Origin: Sphingobacterium multivorum
GTDB lineage: Bacteria; Bacteroidota; Bacteroidia; Sphingobacteriales; Sphingobacteriaceae
Length of the DNA stretch: 64,000 nucleotides
Reading direction: 5' to 3'
Assembly: GCF_039511225.1 (NCBI RefSeq)
Contig: NZ_CP154261.1
Span: forward strand, 2,232,001-2,296,000
Position numbers and translations under genes: made by a program. The notes below the pieces were generated by a model. It did not search any database. It was not told the DNA's origin and saw only the letters and a list, made by a program, of their open reading frames with translations. Positions 44,210 to 46,740 of this stretch are shown piece by piece; within the stretch, counting starts at the first letter, position 1, and every line of letters starts with the position of its first letter.

Positions 44210-44240
44210 AAGCCAGTCCATTTCTCGGACTGGCTTTTTT
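44210..44240 (+). terminator. rho-independent terminator after lysA
   Basis: AAGCCAGTCC (44210-44219) pairs perfectly with GGACTGGCTT (44227-44236), and four more T follow. Confidence 0.9.
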
Positions 44241-44315: not shown

Positions 44316-45080
44316 TTGTTTATGCTTGTGCTAATTGAATTTCCGGTTACGATAGATTTGTTTGGAAAAACATTTCTCTTACATCCTTTTATGGAAGGGT
44401 TGGGGATGTTTATAGGGATGCGTTATTACCAACTGCTCAAATGGAAGGATGAGGAAAGTTTAGGGCATATCAATTCACTTCTTATTGTTATTGCTGCCGG
44501 CTTAGGCGCTTTAATCGGCTCGCATATTATCGGTTCCCTCGAGCGTCCTGCTGAGTTGCTCAATGCGACACATAAATGGACTTACATCTGGGTGAATAAT
44601 ACGATAATCGGTGGTTTGGCAGGAGGTTTGGTTGCCGTAGAAGGGATGAAAAAGATCATGGGTAAAAAAGAAAGTACCGGGGATCGCATGGTCTTTCCTT
44701 TAATTACCGCAATTGCCATTGGCAGAATAGGATGTTTTTACACGGGTGTGTTCGAGCAGACCTACGGTTTACCCACTACCTCTCCATTGGGGATGTACTT
44801 GGGCGATGCCTACAAACGGCATCCAGTTGCGCTGTATGAAATCGCATTTTTGCTGCTTTTATTTGTAACGCTCCAACTTTTTAAACGACGATACAATTAT
44901 CGAAATGGTGTGTTGTTTCAGCTTTTTATGCTTAGTTATTTTGGTTTTCGTTTCCTGCTGGACTTTATTAAGCCGCGGGCAATTATACTTTTGGGGCTAA
45001 GTACCATACAAATTACCTGCATCGTGGTGATAATTTATTATATTTATTTATTAAAAAATGAACGTTTAATCAAAAAATAG
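44316..45080 (+). CDS. Lgt-like prolipoprotein diacylglyceryl transferase family protein, diverged
   Basis: 254 aa polytopic protein with about seven helices in the Lgt family. The lipid-binding core is seen in AIGRIGCFYTG (Arg137 matching E. coli Arg143), HPVALYE (169-175) and GVLFQLFMLSYFGFRF with Arg212 matching Arg239. At the position of E. coli His103 (SFHGGLIG) there is Ile98 (NTIIGGLAGG), and the Asn after the GRxG motif is absent. Housekeeping lipoprotein modification is therefore doubtful. The gene starts an operon (5-base and 11-base gaps) with a small membrane protein and a radical-SAM lipid enzyme, suggesting lipid substrate handling (inference). Confidence 0.78.
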   Translation: MFMLVLIEFPVTIDLFGKTFLLHPFMEGLGMFIGMRYYQLLKWKDEESLGHINSLLIVIAAGLGALIGSHIIGSLERPAELLNATHKWTYIWVNNTIIGGLAGGLVAVEGMKKIMGKKESTGDRMVFPLITAIAIGRIGCFYTGVFEQTYGLPTTSPLGMYLGDAYKRHPVALYEIAFLLLLFVTLQLFKRRYNYRNGVLFQLFMLSYFGFRFLLDFIKPRAIILLGLSTIQITCIVVIIYYIYLLKNERLIKK

Positions 45081-45085
45081 GAATC

Positions 45086-45325
45086 ATGTATTTGCTTGAA
45101 GGATCATTTGGATCGGAAAGTACCGCGATGCTAGGACTTTTTCTTCTTACTATAGGTGCTATTGTGATTGGCATTGCACTTTTGGTTATTATTATCGGCT
45201 CGATTATTAAAGCAGGTAATAAGGAGTCGAAGTTTAATGTCAATCCCTGGCTTAAAGTATTGTTGGGCGGAATTGGAGCAATGCTGGCAGGAGGGCTTGC
45301 CTGCGGACTTACCTTTATGAACTAG
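45086..45325 (+). CDS. small two-helix membrane protein of the Lgt-like/radical-SAM operon
   Basis: 79 aa, with two strongly hydrophobic helices (about residues 14-42 and 57-76) joined by a basic loop GNKESKFNVNPWLK. No known domain is recognised. It lies between the Lgt-like gene (5 bases upstream) and the radical-SAM gene (11 bases downstream), so it belongs to the same transcript. A small helper or scaffold protein for the lipid-modifying pair is one possibility; this is inference. Alternatively it may be an unrelated membrane peptide. Confidence 0.72.
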   Translation: MYLLEGSFGSESTAMLGLFLLTIGAIVIGIALLVIIIGSIIKAGNKESKFNVNPWLKVLLGGIGAMLAGGLACGLTFMN

Positions 45326-45336
45326 AAATCAGAACG

Positions 45337-46740
45337 ATGCCAGTAAGAAACTATACGTACTACGATTATACCATTAGCCTATGTCCAACATGCCTTTCGC
45401 GTGTGGGTGCCAAGATTATTATCGAGGATGAACAGGTATTTATGACCAAAAACTGTCCCGATCATGGTTTTTTCAAAACGCTGATTGCGACGGATGTTGA
45501 CTATTATAAGAACATTCGGAATTATAATAAAGCCTCCGAAACACCGTTGAAATTTGACAACGAAGTACATTATGGCTGCCCATACGATTGCGGTTTATGT
45601 GTAGATCACGAGCAGCATAGCTGCTTGTCCATTGTTGAGGTCACCGACCGTTGTAATTTGACCTGCCCAACTTGTTACGCCATGTCGTCGCCCCACTACG
45701 GACGACATCGCTCGCTGGAAGAGATTGAACAGATGTTTGACAAAATCGTCGAAAGTGAGGGTGAACCAGATGTGGTTCAGATCAGCGGTGGAGAGCCAAC
45801 CATACACCCTGATTTTTTTAAGATTTTAGACATTGCGAAGACAAAACCTATTAAGCATCTCATGCTCAATACGAATGGTATCCGAATTGCCAATGATCCC
45901 GGTTTTGCTGAGCAACTCGCCACCTATGCGCCTGAATTTGAAATCTATCTCCAGTTTGATTCTTTTCGCCCATCCGTGCTCGAAAAGTTTCGGGGCAAAG
46001 ATCTCACGGATGTCCGAAAAAAGGCCATTGACAAATTAAATGCGCTCAATCTGAGTACAACATTGGTTGTGGTCTTAGAAAAGGGAACCAATGATGATGA
46101 AATCGGGGAAATCTTGGAGTACGCTTTACAACAGCGATGTGTACGCGGGGTAACTTTTCAACCGGTGGAAATTGCCGGGCGAAATGCCGCCGATGCACAG
46201 CAGCATAAAATGACACTGACTGAGGTACGTCAGGAAATCCTGAATCAATATTCCCTATTGGATCCACATGATATTATTCCTGTTCCTTGTAATCCTGATG
46301 CCTTGGCGATGGGTTATATCCTAAAGATAGGCGATGAGCGGATACCCTTGACCCGGCATATTGATCCGGCTATTTTATTAAATAACCAATCGCGCAATAC
46401 CATTGTCTATGAACAGGACAAAGGGGTTCAGATGCAATTGCTGGATATATTTAGCACCGGAATTTCGGTGGATAAGGTAAAGCCGAAAGTAAATCAATTG
46501 CTTTGCTGTTTGCCGGAAGTGTGCGCACCTGATCTTGATTACGATAATCTTTTCCGTATTATCATTATGAATTTTATGGATGCCTACGATTTTGATGTTC
46601 GTGCGGTTAAGAAATCTTGTGTCCACATCGTCAATAAAGACTTGAAGTTGATTCCTTTTGAGACGATGAATTTATTTTATCGTGATGATAAAATAAAACG
46701 GCTGGAAGAACTAAAACTCTCGGATGCTATTCGATTTTAA
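45337..46740 (+). CDS. radical SAM protein resembling archaeal tetraether lipid synthase (Tes/GDGT-MAS)
   Basis: 467 aa. The radical SAM cluster is C106-x3-C110-x2-C113 (CNLTCPTC), followed by SGGEPT at 150-155 for SAM binding. A cysteine-rich N-terminus holds C16-x2-C19 with CP at 40 (rubredoxin-like). A second set C81-x3-C85-x2-C88 and C96 (GCPYDCGLC, HSC) lies directly before the core. The layout LCPTCLSRVGAK, GCPYDCGLCVDH and EVTDRCNLTC is that of archaeal Tes, which joins C-40 ends of lipid tails, although the substrate here is untested. More cysteines occur near the C-terminus (LLCCLPEVCAP). It ends the Lgt-like operon. Confidence 0.82.
   Translation: MPVRNYTYYDYTISLCPTCLSRVGAKIIIEDEQVFMTKNCPDHGFFKTLIATDVDYYKNIRNYNKASETPLKFDNEVHYGCPYDCGLCVDHEQHSCLSIVEVTDRCNLTCPTCYAMSSPHYGRHRSLEEIEQMFDKIVESEGEPDVVQISGGEPTIHPDFFKILDIAKTKPIKHLMLNTNGIRIANDPGFAEQLATYAPEFEIYLQFDSFRPSVLEKFRGKDLTDVRKKAIDKLNALNLSTTLVVVLEKGTNDDEIGEILEYALQQRCVRGVTFQPVEIAGRNAADAQQHKMTLTEVRQEILNQYSLLDPHDIIPVPCNPDALAMGYILKIGDERIPLTRHIDPAILLNNQSRNTIVYEQDKGVQMQLLDIFSTGISVDKVKPKVNQLLCCLPEVCAPDLDYDNLFRIIIMNFMDAYDFDVRAVKKSCVHIVNKDLKLIPFETMNLFYRDDKIKRLEELKLSDAIRF

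Follow-up and report, generated by a model that had tools for sequence, protein, structure and literature searches.

Why should a gene for a diverged Lgt-like membrane protein be held beside a gene for a radical SAM (S-adenosylmethionine) enzyme, with a very small membrane protein encoded between the two? The question is raised by a 64,000-nucleotide stretch of the Sphingobacterium multivorum genome (NCBI RefSeq assembly GCF_039511225.1, contig NZ_CP154261.1, positions 2,232,001 to 2,296,000 of the forward strand), called the window below, in which the three genes occupy positions 44316-46740 of the forward strand. A sequence-only reading of the window had described them as an operon with gaps of 5 and 11 bases and had proposed a lipid-tail coupling system. 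The open reading frames (ORFs) were confirmed as co-directional with these same gaps, and conservation of the pair in 106 of 300 genomes argues against a chance arrangement. Taken together, the genes suggest a new route to lipid-carrying membrane proteins. Our tentative answer, held with rather less than even confidence, is a three-part lipid-modification system, in which the Lgt paralogue would load lipid onto a cysteine (Cys) of the small hairpin protein and the radical SAM enzyme would tailor that lipid. Folds, motifs, linkage and charge topology were computed, as was the substrate-like evolution of the hairpin, and from them we infer the chemistry.

The radical SAM gene, the Lgt paralogue and one to several Cys-ended miniproteins travel together across Bacteroidota. 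In a sample of 300 genomes of the order, that of the window included, the radical SAM protein (threshold E <= 1e-20) and the Lgt-like profile (E <= 1e-25) were each matched in 106 genomes, and the two sets were identical; the other 194 genomes held neither gene above threshold. In each of the 106 genomes the two genes share a contig and a strand, the Lgt-like gene comes first, and the gap is -1 to 271 bases. Thus, the lack of conserved linkage, which the sequence-only reading had named as grounds for giving up its proposal, was not observed. A few of the 106 pairs hold a broken gene: many stops interrupt the Lgt-like gene in G305, and one stop each lies in the radical SAM matches of G194, G131 and G124. 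Further, the Lgt-like gene lies within 1.5 kb upstream at 77 of 80 named loci, the top-scoring ones among 584 confirmed matches and so biased to close relatives; they include Flavobacterium, Chryseobacterium, Chitinophaga, Pedobacter and Sphingobacterium. In a sample of the whole phylum, the radical SAM protein was matched in 34 of 395 genomes, Tes-like genes included. The Lgt-like gene stands no more than 1.5 kb away at 61 of 63 examined loci and on another contig in G354 and G585. Cys-ended hairpins adjoin the radical SAM gene in G545, G585 and G449.

Within the genus the set is patchy: a full-length radical SAM gene was found in seven of 23 other genomes, and the copy in G005 has internal stops. 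In the sequence of the radical SAM protein, Sphingobacterium shares 82-84% identity with Chryseobacterium and Epilithonimonas but about 67% with Pedobacter and Mucilaginibacter, which belong to its own family. From this identity pattern and patchiness, the radical SAM gene looks to have been exchanged between Weeksellaceae and Sphingobacterium. A Lacinutrix locus (L151) has a seemingly split Lgt-like frame, and the broken copies (L011, which is G005; G305; L151) represent decay or assembly error.

The middle gene (45086-45325) encodes a miniprotein of 79 residues with two membrane helices, as had been read earlier, a lysine-containing loop and a C-terminus of ...AMLAGGLACGLTFMN; it had no Pfam match above cut-off. 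Its counterparts, counted as small membrane ORFs of 45-130 residues beside the gene pair, occur one to three at a time at 76 of the 80 named loci, and 75 loci carry at least one hairpin with a Cys in its last 15 residues. This late Cys is present in 101 of 108 hairpins, against a mean of 31.1 and a maximum of 45 in 1000 shuffles, and Cys density is 0.072 in the last 15 residues versus 0.0078 in the remainder. The count from the 80 loci was not blind: a narrow motif, [GSA]xC, had matched 56 of the 80 loci and 74 of 113 ORFs and had missed the Sphingobacterium and most Chryseobacterium hairpins, and the rule was broadened to a Cys in the last 15 residues after the hairpins had been inspected. 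A second set of 62 loci, which shares some genomes with the first (e.g. L009, L092), was counted with the rule already fixed. Here, a hairpin was found at 58 loci and a late Cys in 73 of 73 hairpins (shuffled mean 23.0, maximum 34); of the four loci without one, G354 is split, L084 lies at a contig end, and two deep-branching loci have the hairpin beyond the Lgt-like gene. Among controls from the same flanks, a late Cys was found in three of 21 small ORFs with two transmembrane helices, of which the one at L113 is probably a displaced hairpin, and in three of 65 large membrane proteins.

The hairpins vary in a manner quite unlike that of the two enzymes. Across 38 radical SAM proteins, 183 of 467 columns are invariant (39%) at a median pairwise identity of 71.8%, and across 41 Lgt-like proteins the figures are 37 of 254 columns (15%) and 46.2%. 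In 24 aligned hairpins, by contrast, the sole invariant column is the Cys represented by Cys73 of the window (codon 45302-45304), and median identity is 25.0%. The 24 were hand-picked from Cys bearers, so that invariance of the Cys is by choice, while the lack of any other invariant column is not. Hairpins nearly free of fixed columns, set beside these enzymes, show the pattern expected of a substrate, with Cys73 as the proposed lipid acceptor. To the sequence-only reading the middle gene was a bystander, yet of the three genes it is the one that evolves most like a substrate.

The charges of the hairpins are similarly ordered. At least one lysine or arginine falls within the 14 residues before the last helix in all 101 Cys-bearing hairpins (mean 3.15), whereas the mean number of such residues after the Cys is 0.14; forms with three helices have lysine or arginine at the N-terminus. 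Under the positive-inside rule, this pattern predicts that the Cys lies outside, as in a lipoprotein precursor. Among the 74 narrow-motif hairpins, position -4 is G or S in 73, and the motif itself fixes position -2 as G, S or A; 41 of these proteins contain a single Cys.

Nineteen of the 74 end in His, often as -FH or -MH a few residues past the Cys; such endings were seen at Chitinophaga, Mucilaginibacter and some Flavobacterium loci (e.g. L121, L149, L157). A leader-like start, LLEVGNLxGL, was recognized by eye in many hairpins of Flavobacteriaceae, Chryseobacterium and Lewinella and could be a recognition sequence.

The Lgt-like ORF (44316-45080) has 254 residues when read from TTG, the start used here for residue numbering; an in-frame ATG at 44322 (44322-45080) is the likelier start and agrees with the consensus start of its relatives. 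It scores 75.0 bits with Pfam LGT (PF01790), above the cut-off of 24.9, and 20.3 bits with TIGR00544, the profile of Lgt proper (phosphatidylglycerol:prolipoprotein diacylglyceryl transferase), below the cut-off of 118.9. The only PDB entry matched at E <= 0.001 by a model of the protein (predicted local distance difference test, pLDDT, 88.9) was 5AZB, the Lgt of E. coli (E 2.3e-6), and comparison with 5AZB (Z 15.2, root-mean-square deviation 4.7 Å, 240 residues) shows that the Lgt fold is kept. The window protein shares with E. coli Lgt the catalytic arginine pair and most of the polar network: R137 (equivalent to R143), G139, Y174-E175, Y208, R212 (R239) and D216 (E243) are kept. It is unlike Lgt in that its family is without His103, Asn146 and E151; the window protein has a TIIGGL arm with no His at the place of H103, and C140 at that of N146.

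These features hold across the family. An alignment of 77 Lgt-like sequences (L177 plus 76 from the named loci) shows, in E. coli numbering, R143, G145, G154, E202, Y235 and R239 in every sequence and Y201 in 75; position 243 is E or D in all and N146 is replaced by Cys in all. The same GRxGC signature without HGG also occurs in actinobacterial, G414 and deep-branch Lgt-like copies. In Lgt, the scissile bond is flanked by R143 and R239 and the active site is presumably open to the periplasm; R143 mutants and every tested H103 mutant are inactive, and no A, N, Q, R or Y substitution of H103 complements in E. coli (PMC4728403). The conserved and lost residues together indicate a retained transfer site, with recognition of the donor or acceptor partly altered, and on sequence grounds the paralogue is catalytically plausible. 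The genome holds two further strong LGT matches (228 and 222.7 bits), both with SHGG, whose His is equivalent to His103, and RxGN; thus, the gene of the window is an extra Lgt paralogue. An ordinary second Lgt was considered and rejected, given the missing His103, the TIGR00544 score far under its cut-off and the two stronger Lgt genes.

The radical SAM ORF (45337-46740) encodes 467 residues and matches the Pfam families Radical_SAM (97.2 bits) and Zn_ribbon_HMPTM (70.4 bits). The CxxC, C-x3-C-x2-C and SGGEPT motifs that had been read in it are all present, as is C96. Its top solved relative by sequence is Tes (tetraether lipid synthase, GDGT-MAS; MJ0619) of M. jannaschii (7TOL, E 1.3e-63), with others far below. 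An AlphaFold2 model (pLDDT 72.6, predicted template modelling score 0.79) is weak in the cluster loops, with pLDDT below 50 at residues 64-93, 106-120 and 349-395 and in short stretches; it matched 7TOM with Z 34.6 and a root-mean-square deviation of 3.5 Å over 413 residues, the next-best fold being MoaA at Z 17.7. In the model the Tes fold thus extends over the whole chain.

Three of the four Tes metal-site motifs are kept with identical spacing: a rubredoxin-type motif, C16-x2-C19-x20-C40-x2-H43 (45382-45465), an N-terminal [4Fe-4S] motif, C81-x3-C85-x2-C88 with H91 (45577-45609), and the radical SAM cluster motif, C106-x3-C110-x2-C113 (45652-45675). Their counterparts in Tes are the rubredoxin iron site C9-x2-C12-x20-C33-x2-H36, the N-terminal cluster bound by C73, C77, C80 and a His, and the SAM cluster on CX3CX2C (PMC9433317). 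The SAM-side residues FQP..GR are also shared. At the fourth site, where Tes has CC...PFC, the window protein has S427, C428 and E442, so that two of three Cys are replaced and one remains. The same positions hold S or T, C, and E or D in 12 aligned rows of the main family, in which C318 and C390-C391 are fixed instead (invariant in 38 sequences). CC...PFC is retained by Tes-like, haloarchaeal, M. vanbaalenii and actinobacterial relatives, and the N-terminal cluster motif is lost in three actinobacterial relatives and in L176. The Cys of CC...PFC would be cluster ligands; the C-terminal cluster of Tes lies close to the lipid, with a labile Met439 (PMC9433317). Because two of the three are replaced, membrane-spanning lipids cannot be deduced for the window enzyme from kinship alone.

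The enzyme scored 280.6 bits with the Tes profile (NF045702, cut-off 450) and 327.6 bits over nearly its full length with TrsS (NF045646, cut-off 490), its best NCBIfam match, whereas two genomes of the same phylum reach 493.8 (L174) and 441.9 bits (L176, just below the cut-off) with the Tes profile. The window family is therefore treated, from its sequences, as a sister of Tes and TrsS. The kinship with Tes claimed by the sequence-only reading thus stands as regards the fold and three metal sites, but not as regards the curated family or the C-terminal Cys. The other ground that reading had named for giving up its proposal, best matches in a different radical SAM family combined with lack of a Tes-like fold, applies by half: TrsS ranks ahead of Tes among the curated families, but the fold is that of Tes, so the proposal is partly supported. 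A match to the anti-phage viperin model of PADLOC (pVip, 48.8 bits at 101-218 and 46.6 at 102-262) covers the radical SAM core only and was set aside.

These parts may be assembled as follows. The last helix of the miniprotein would act as a lipoprotein signal relocated to the C-terminus, made up of a positive cytoplasmic loop, a hydrophobic helix, in most cases a [G/S]-x-[G/S]-x-Cys sequence, and a short outer tail. On the cytoplasmic side, the radical SAM enzyme would abstract hydrogen from an unactivated lipid carbon, as Tes does, to give the attached lipid special tails, which may be coupled, cyclised or otherwise changed. The Lgt paralogue, presumably with an outward-facing active site like that of Lgt, would then use the altered lipid and move a diacylglycerol-type group from phospholipid to the Cys. 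The miniprotein would thus be substrate and product carrier rather than catalytic subunit. The earlier proposal that the Lgt-like protein moves diacylglycerol within a lipid-only pathway is recast here, since the paralogue would lipidate a C-terminal Cys. In its fullest form, the scheme implies a new lipoprotein class of mesophilic aerobic bacteria, with a C-terminal reversed lipobox, glycerolipid tails remodelled in Tes-like fashion (coupled mutually or to a second lipid) and a cyclic or membrane-spanning anchor; this extension is speculative and, as a whole, unlikely to hold.

Similar gene sets occur on deep branches and in another phylum. On a deep branch of the phylum, with radical SAM proteins 38-40% identical, L171 and L172 have the order radical SAM gene, ICMT/PEMT-family methyltransferase, DUF4395, Lgt-like gene and small membrane protein, the last ending ..FGACMVGIGG.. 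or ..FGSCLSILF..; L173 has a DUF4395-like frame, an Lgt-like gene and a small membrane protein ending ..FGACIIGLGG... The ICMT/PEMT family acts on lipidated Cys or phospholipids, and its presence in two deep-branch operons counts for lipidation. On a plasmid in Mycobacterium avium and in M. branderi, an 'Lgt family' gene is followed by genes for two small proteins each and then by the radical SAM gene; the small proteins end ..AGICTGLNP.., ..AGYCTGLNP.., ..GGLCTGLNP.. and ..VGVCTGLNP... In Nonomuraea gerenzanensis, a proline-rich protein of 368 residues ending ..SAGICTGINPSLYG adjoins the pair. A trio of actinobacterial type is also found in the window's own phylum (G414), its small protein with ..SGGMCIFLPQPL. 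The actinobacterial and G414 radical SAM proteins are without the N-terminal cluster motif and keep C96 and CC...PFC (in G414 as judged by eye). A Persicobacter psychrovividus megaplasmid carries an Lgt-like frame, a radical SAM gene and a Cys-ended hairpin.

Several results weigh against lipidation of the hairpin as set out above. The His103 column is a gap in all 77 Lgt-like sequences, and E151, which binds phosphatidylglycerol in Lgt, is not conserved in them; with both lost, the reaction may differ from that of Lgt. The radical SAM enzyme should be cytoplasmic and the Cys is outside by the charge rule, so the two enzymes cannot act at the same spot and time; an order of lipid first and transfer second is therefore favoured. 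A cruder charge test found the loop richer in lysine and arginine than both ends in just 82 of 108 hairpins. A lipobox is an N-terminal signal, [LVI][ASTVI][GAS]C, and the context of the hairpin Cys is no canonical lipobox, with T or I at -1 in 47 of 74. Five of the 80 named loci (L112, L113, L129, L138, L160) have no matching hairpin, although the stretches of L138 and L160 end 118 and 300 bases downstream and the L113 hairpin lies 4.6 kb away; none was found at G354 either. In 30 genomes including that of the window, a hairpin profile (A4) found hairpins at E ~1e-15 in the window genome, G005, G008, G015, G016 and G017, which are the genomes of that sample having the radical SAM gene. Six further matches at E 0.003-0.01 were noise-like, and the profile found no convincing match in seven of the eight genomes searched from other branches, so that hairpin homology across branches is unsupported. 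Finally, a single clade of Lgt-linked radical SAM proteins has support of just 87/82: 18 proteins of the module type fall on one side of this branch, and Tes-like, haloarchaeal and M. vanbaalenii proteins on the other. Long-branch warnings attach to this tree, and for that reason no origin is drawn from it.

The alternative that survives best, though it is rather unlikely, is that the hairpins are precursors akin to ribosomally synthesized and post-translationally modified peptides (RiPPs). The radical SAM enzyme would then modify the peptide, at or close to the Cys, ahead of its insertion into the membrane, and the Lgt paralogue would lipidate the peptide there or at another residue with an ordinary lipid. 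Rapidly changing small ORFs in tandem next to a radical SAM gene are a typical sign of precursor peptides, and the hairpins, with little fixed but one residue, resemble them. A small RiPP of the ChrH/DybH type enters the lipoprotein pathway in Bacteroidota, by way of an MNIO enzyme, an ordinary Lgt and a canonical N-terminal lipobox (PMC12636315). The window system differs from that one in its radical SAM enzyme, dedicated Lgt paralogue and C-terminal Cys; by analogy, the ChrH/DybH pathway would make the pairing of peptide modification with Lgt chemically reasonable. A peptide-modifying role is opposed by the whole-chain Tes fold of the enzyme, at Z 34.6 versus 12-17 for the peptide maturases listed, by the lack of any Pfam match to a peptide-binding domain resembling the RiPP recognition element and by the position of the fixed residue within or at the end of a membrane helix.

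An account of the kind first proposed for the window, in which the radical SAM enzyme couples the tails of free phospholipids, the Lgt-like protein moves or prepares diacylglycerol and the hairpin is an accessory subunit, is likewise unlikely. It would make direct sense of the complete Tes fold with its three metal-site motifs and of the Lgt fold with its catalytic Arg pair. The missed Tes cut-off and the two replaced C-terminal Cys speak against it, and an accessory subunit should keep more than one residue where the enzymes hold 39% and 15% invariant columns. The number of hairpins also varies, from one to three per locus among the 76 loci having any.

Less probable again is a hairpin that serves as a membrane subunit, its Cys (and in certain hairpins a C-terminal His) binding a metal or cluster, and that feeds electrons to the radical SAM enzyme or docks it at the membrane, beside an Lgt-like protein that has lost transferase activity. 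The 19 His-ended hairpins and the lost His103 would suit such a role, which sits poorly with the single Cys of 41 of 74 hairpins, with the lack of a terminal His in the window hairpin and in 55 of the 74 and with a Cys on the predicted outer side, away from a cytoplasmic enzyme. That the genes are mere neighbours without joint function is very improbable. No result speaks for it, and against it stand their identical presence in 106 of 300 genomes, the persistence of both genes where they lie apart, and the comparable trio of another phylum.

Lipidation of the hairpin Cys by a dedicated Lgt paralogue, the reading preferred here, has partial likenesses among known systems. Like a bacterial lipoprotein, the hairpin has a positive n-region, a hydrophobic helix and a Cys at its outer end (in all 101 late-Cys hairpins), but its signal is C-terminal and there is no N-terminal lipobox. 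MYXO-CTERM and GlyGly-CTERM are short C-terminal membrane signals with the signature before the helix and positive charges after it; the hairpin resembles these sorting tails in having a C-terminal membrane signal with a fixed residue, in reversed order. To our knowledge, all known lipoproteins carry their lipid on an N-terminal Cys that follows a signal peptide, lipid-tail coupling by an enzyme of Tes fold is proven for archaeal lipids only, and no known system joins these parts. Mss is a radical SAM enzyme. It is a bacterial membrane-spanning lipid synthase that couples two fatty acids, with no Lgt partner mentioned in the available part of PMC11868695.

In searches of open-licence papers, no title among those listed concerned a pair of Lgt and radical SAM genes. 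The sequence-only reading knew of none in Bacteroidota; this part of it stands, whereas the trio also occurs in Mycobacterium and Nonomuraea. Each enzyme comes from a known superfamily, and since no system known to us or found in these papers joins the parts, the system is rated as new. For bacterial Tes relatives, 456 homologues with a proposed role in branched tetraethers are reported (PMC8941075), their activity is described as not confirmed (PMC11868695), and they occur in bacteria not known to make such chains (PMC9433317); the available parts of these three papers mention neither an Lgt partner nor hairpins. TrsS appears as a table row in a paper that also names radical SAM (PMC13188914). 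With a widespread trio in cultivable bacteria, the role of bacterial Tes relatives is directly testable, all the more as the candidate substrate is small and has one nearly constant Cys.

The relatives outside the module differ in their neighbours. The window enzyme is tied to the Lgt paralogue and hairpins, while no Lgt-like ORF or hairpin was seen beside the Tes-like genes of L174 (6864-8321) and L176 (6107-7582); judged by their sequences, these genomes are candidate makers of bacterial tetraether-type lipids. Three haloarchaeal relatives and one on an M. vanbaalenii plasmid, taken to be of the TrsS kind, adjoin a methyltransferase, with no Lgt annotated in the stretches shown.

A wider operon was considered and rejected. 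When the neighbourhoods of the 80 named loci were clustered, the radical SAM gene was present at 80 and the Lgt-like gene at 78, clusters of small membrane proteins reached at most 20, and no cluster beyond the parts of the trio occurred at more than 16 of the 80. In the window, a terminator-like stem-loop with a T-run (44210-44236, forward strand; 10 pairs, 6 of them GC) follows a lysA-like gene and would mark the upstream edge of the module; three such sites were found in the region against 2.9 expected from shuffles, making this a weak sign when taken alone. By Pfam, the neighbours of the trio are this lysA-like gene upstream and an MscS-type channel downstream, and the ORFs further upstream are presumably serC, serA and lysC.

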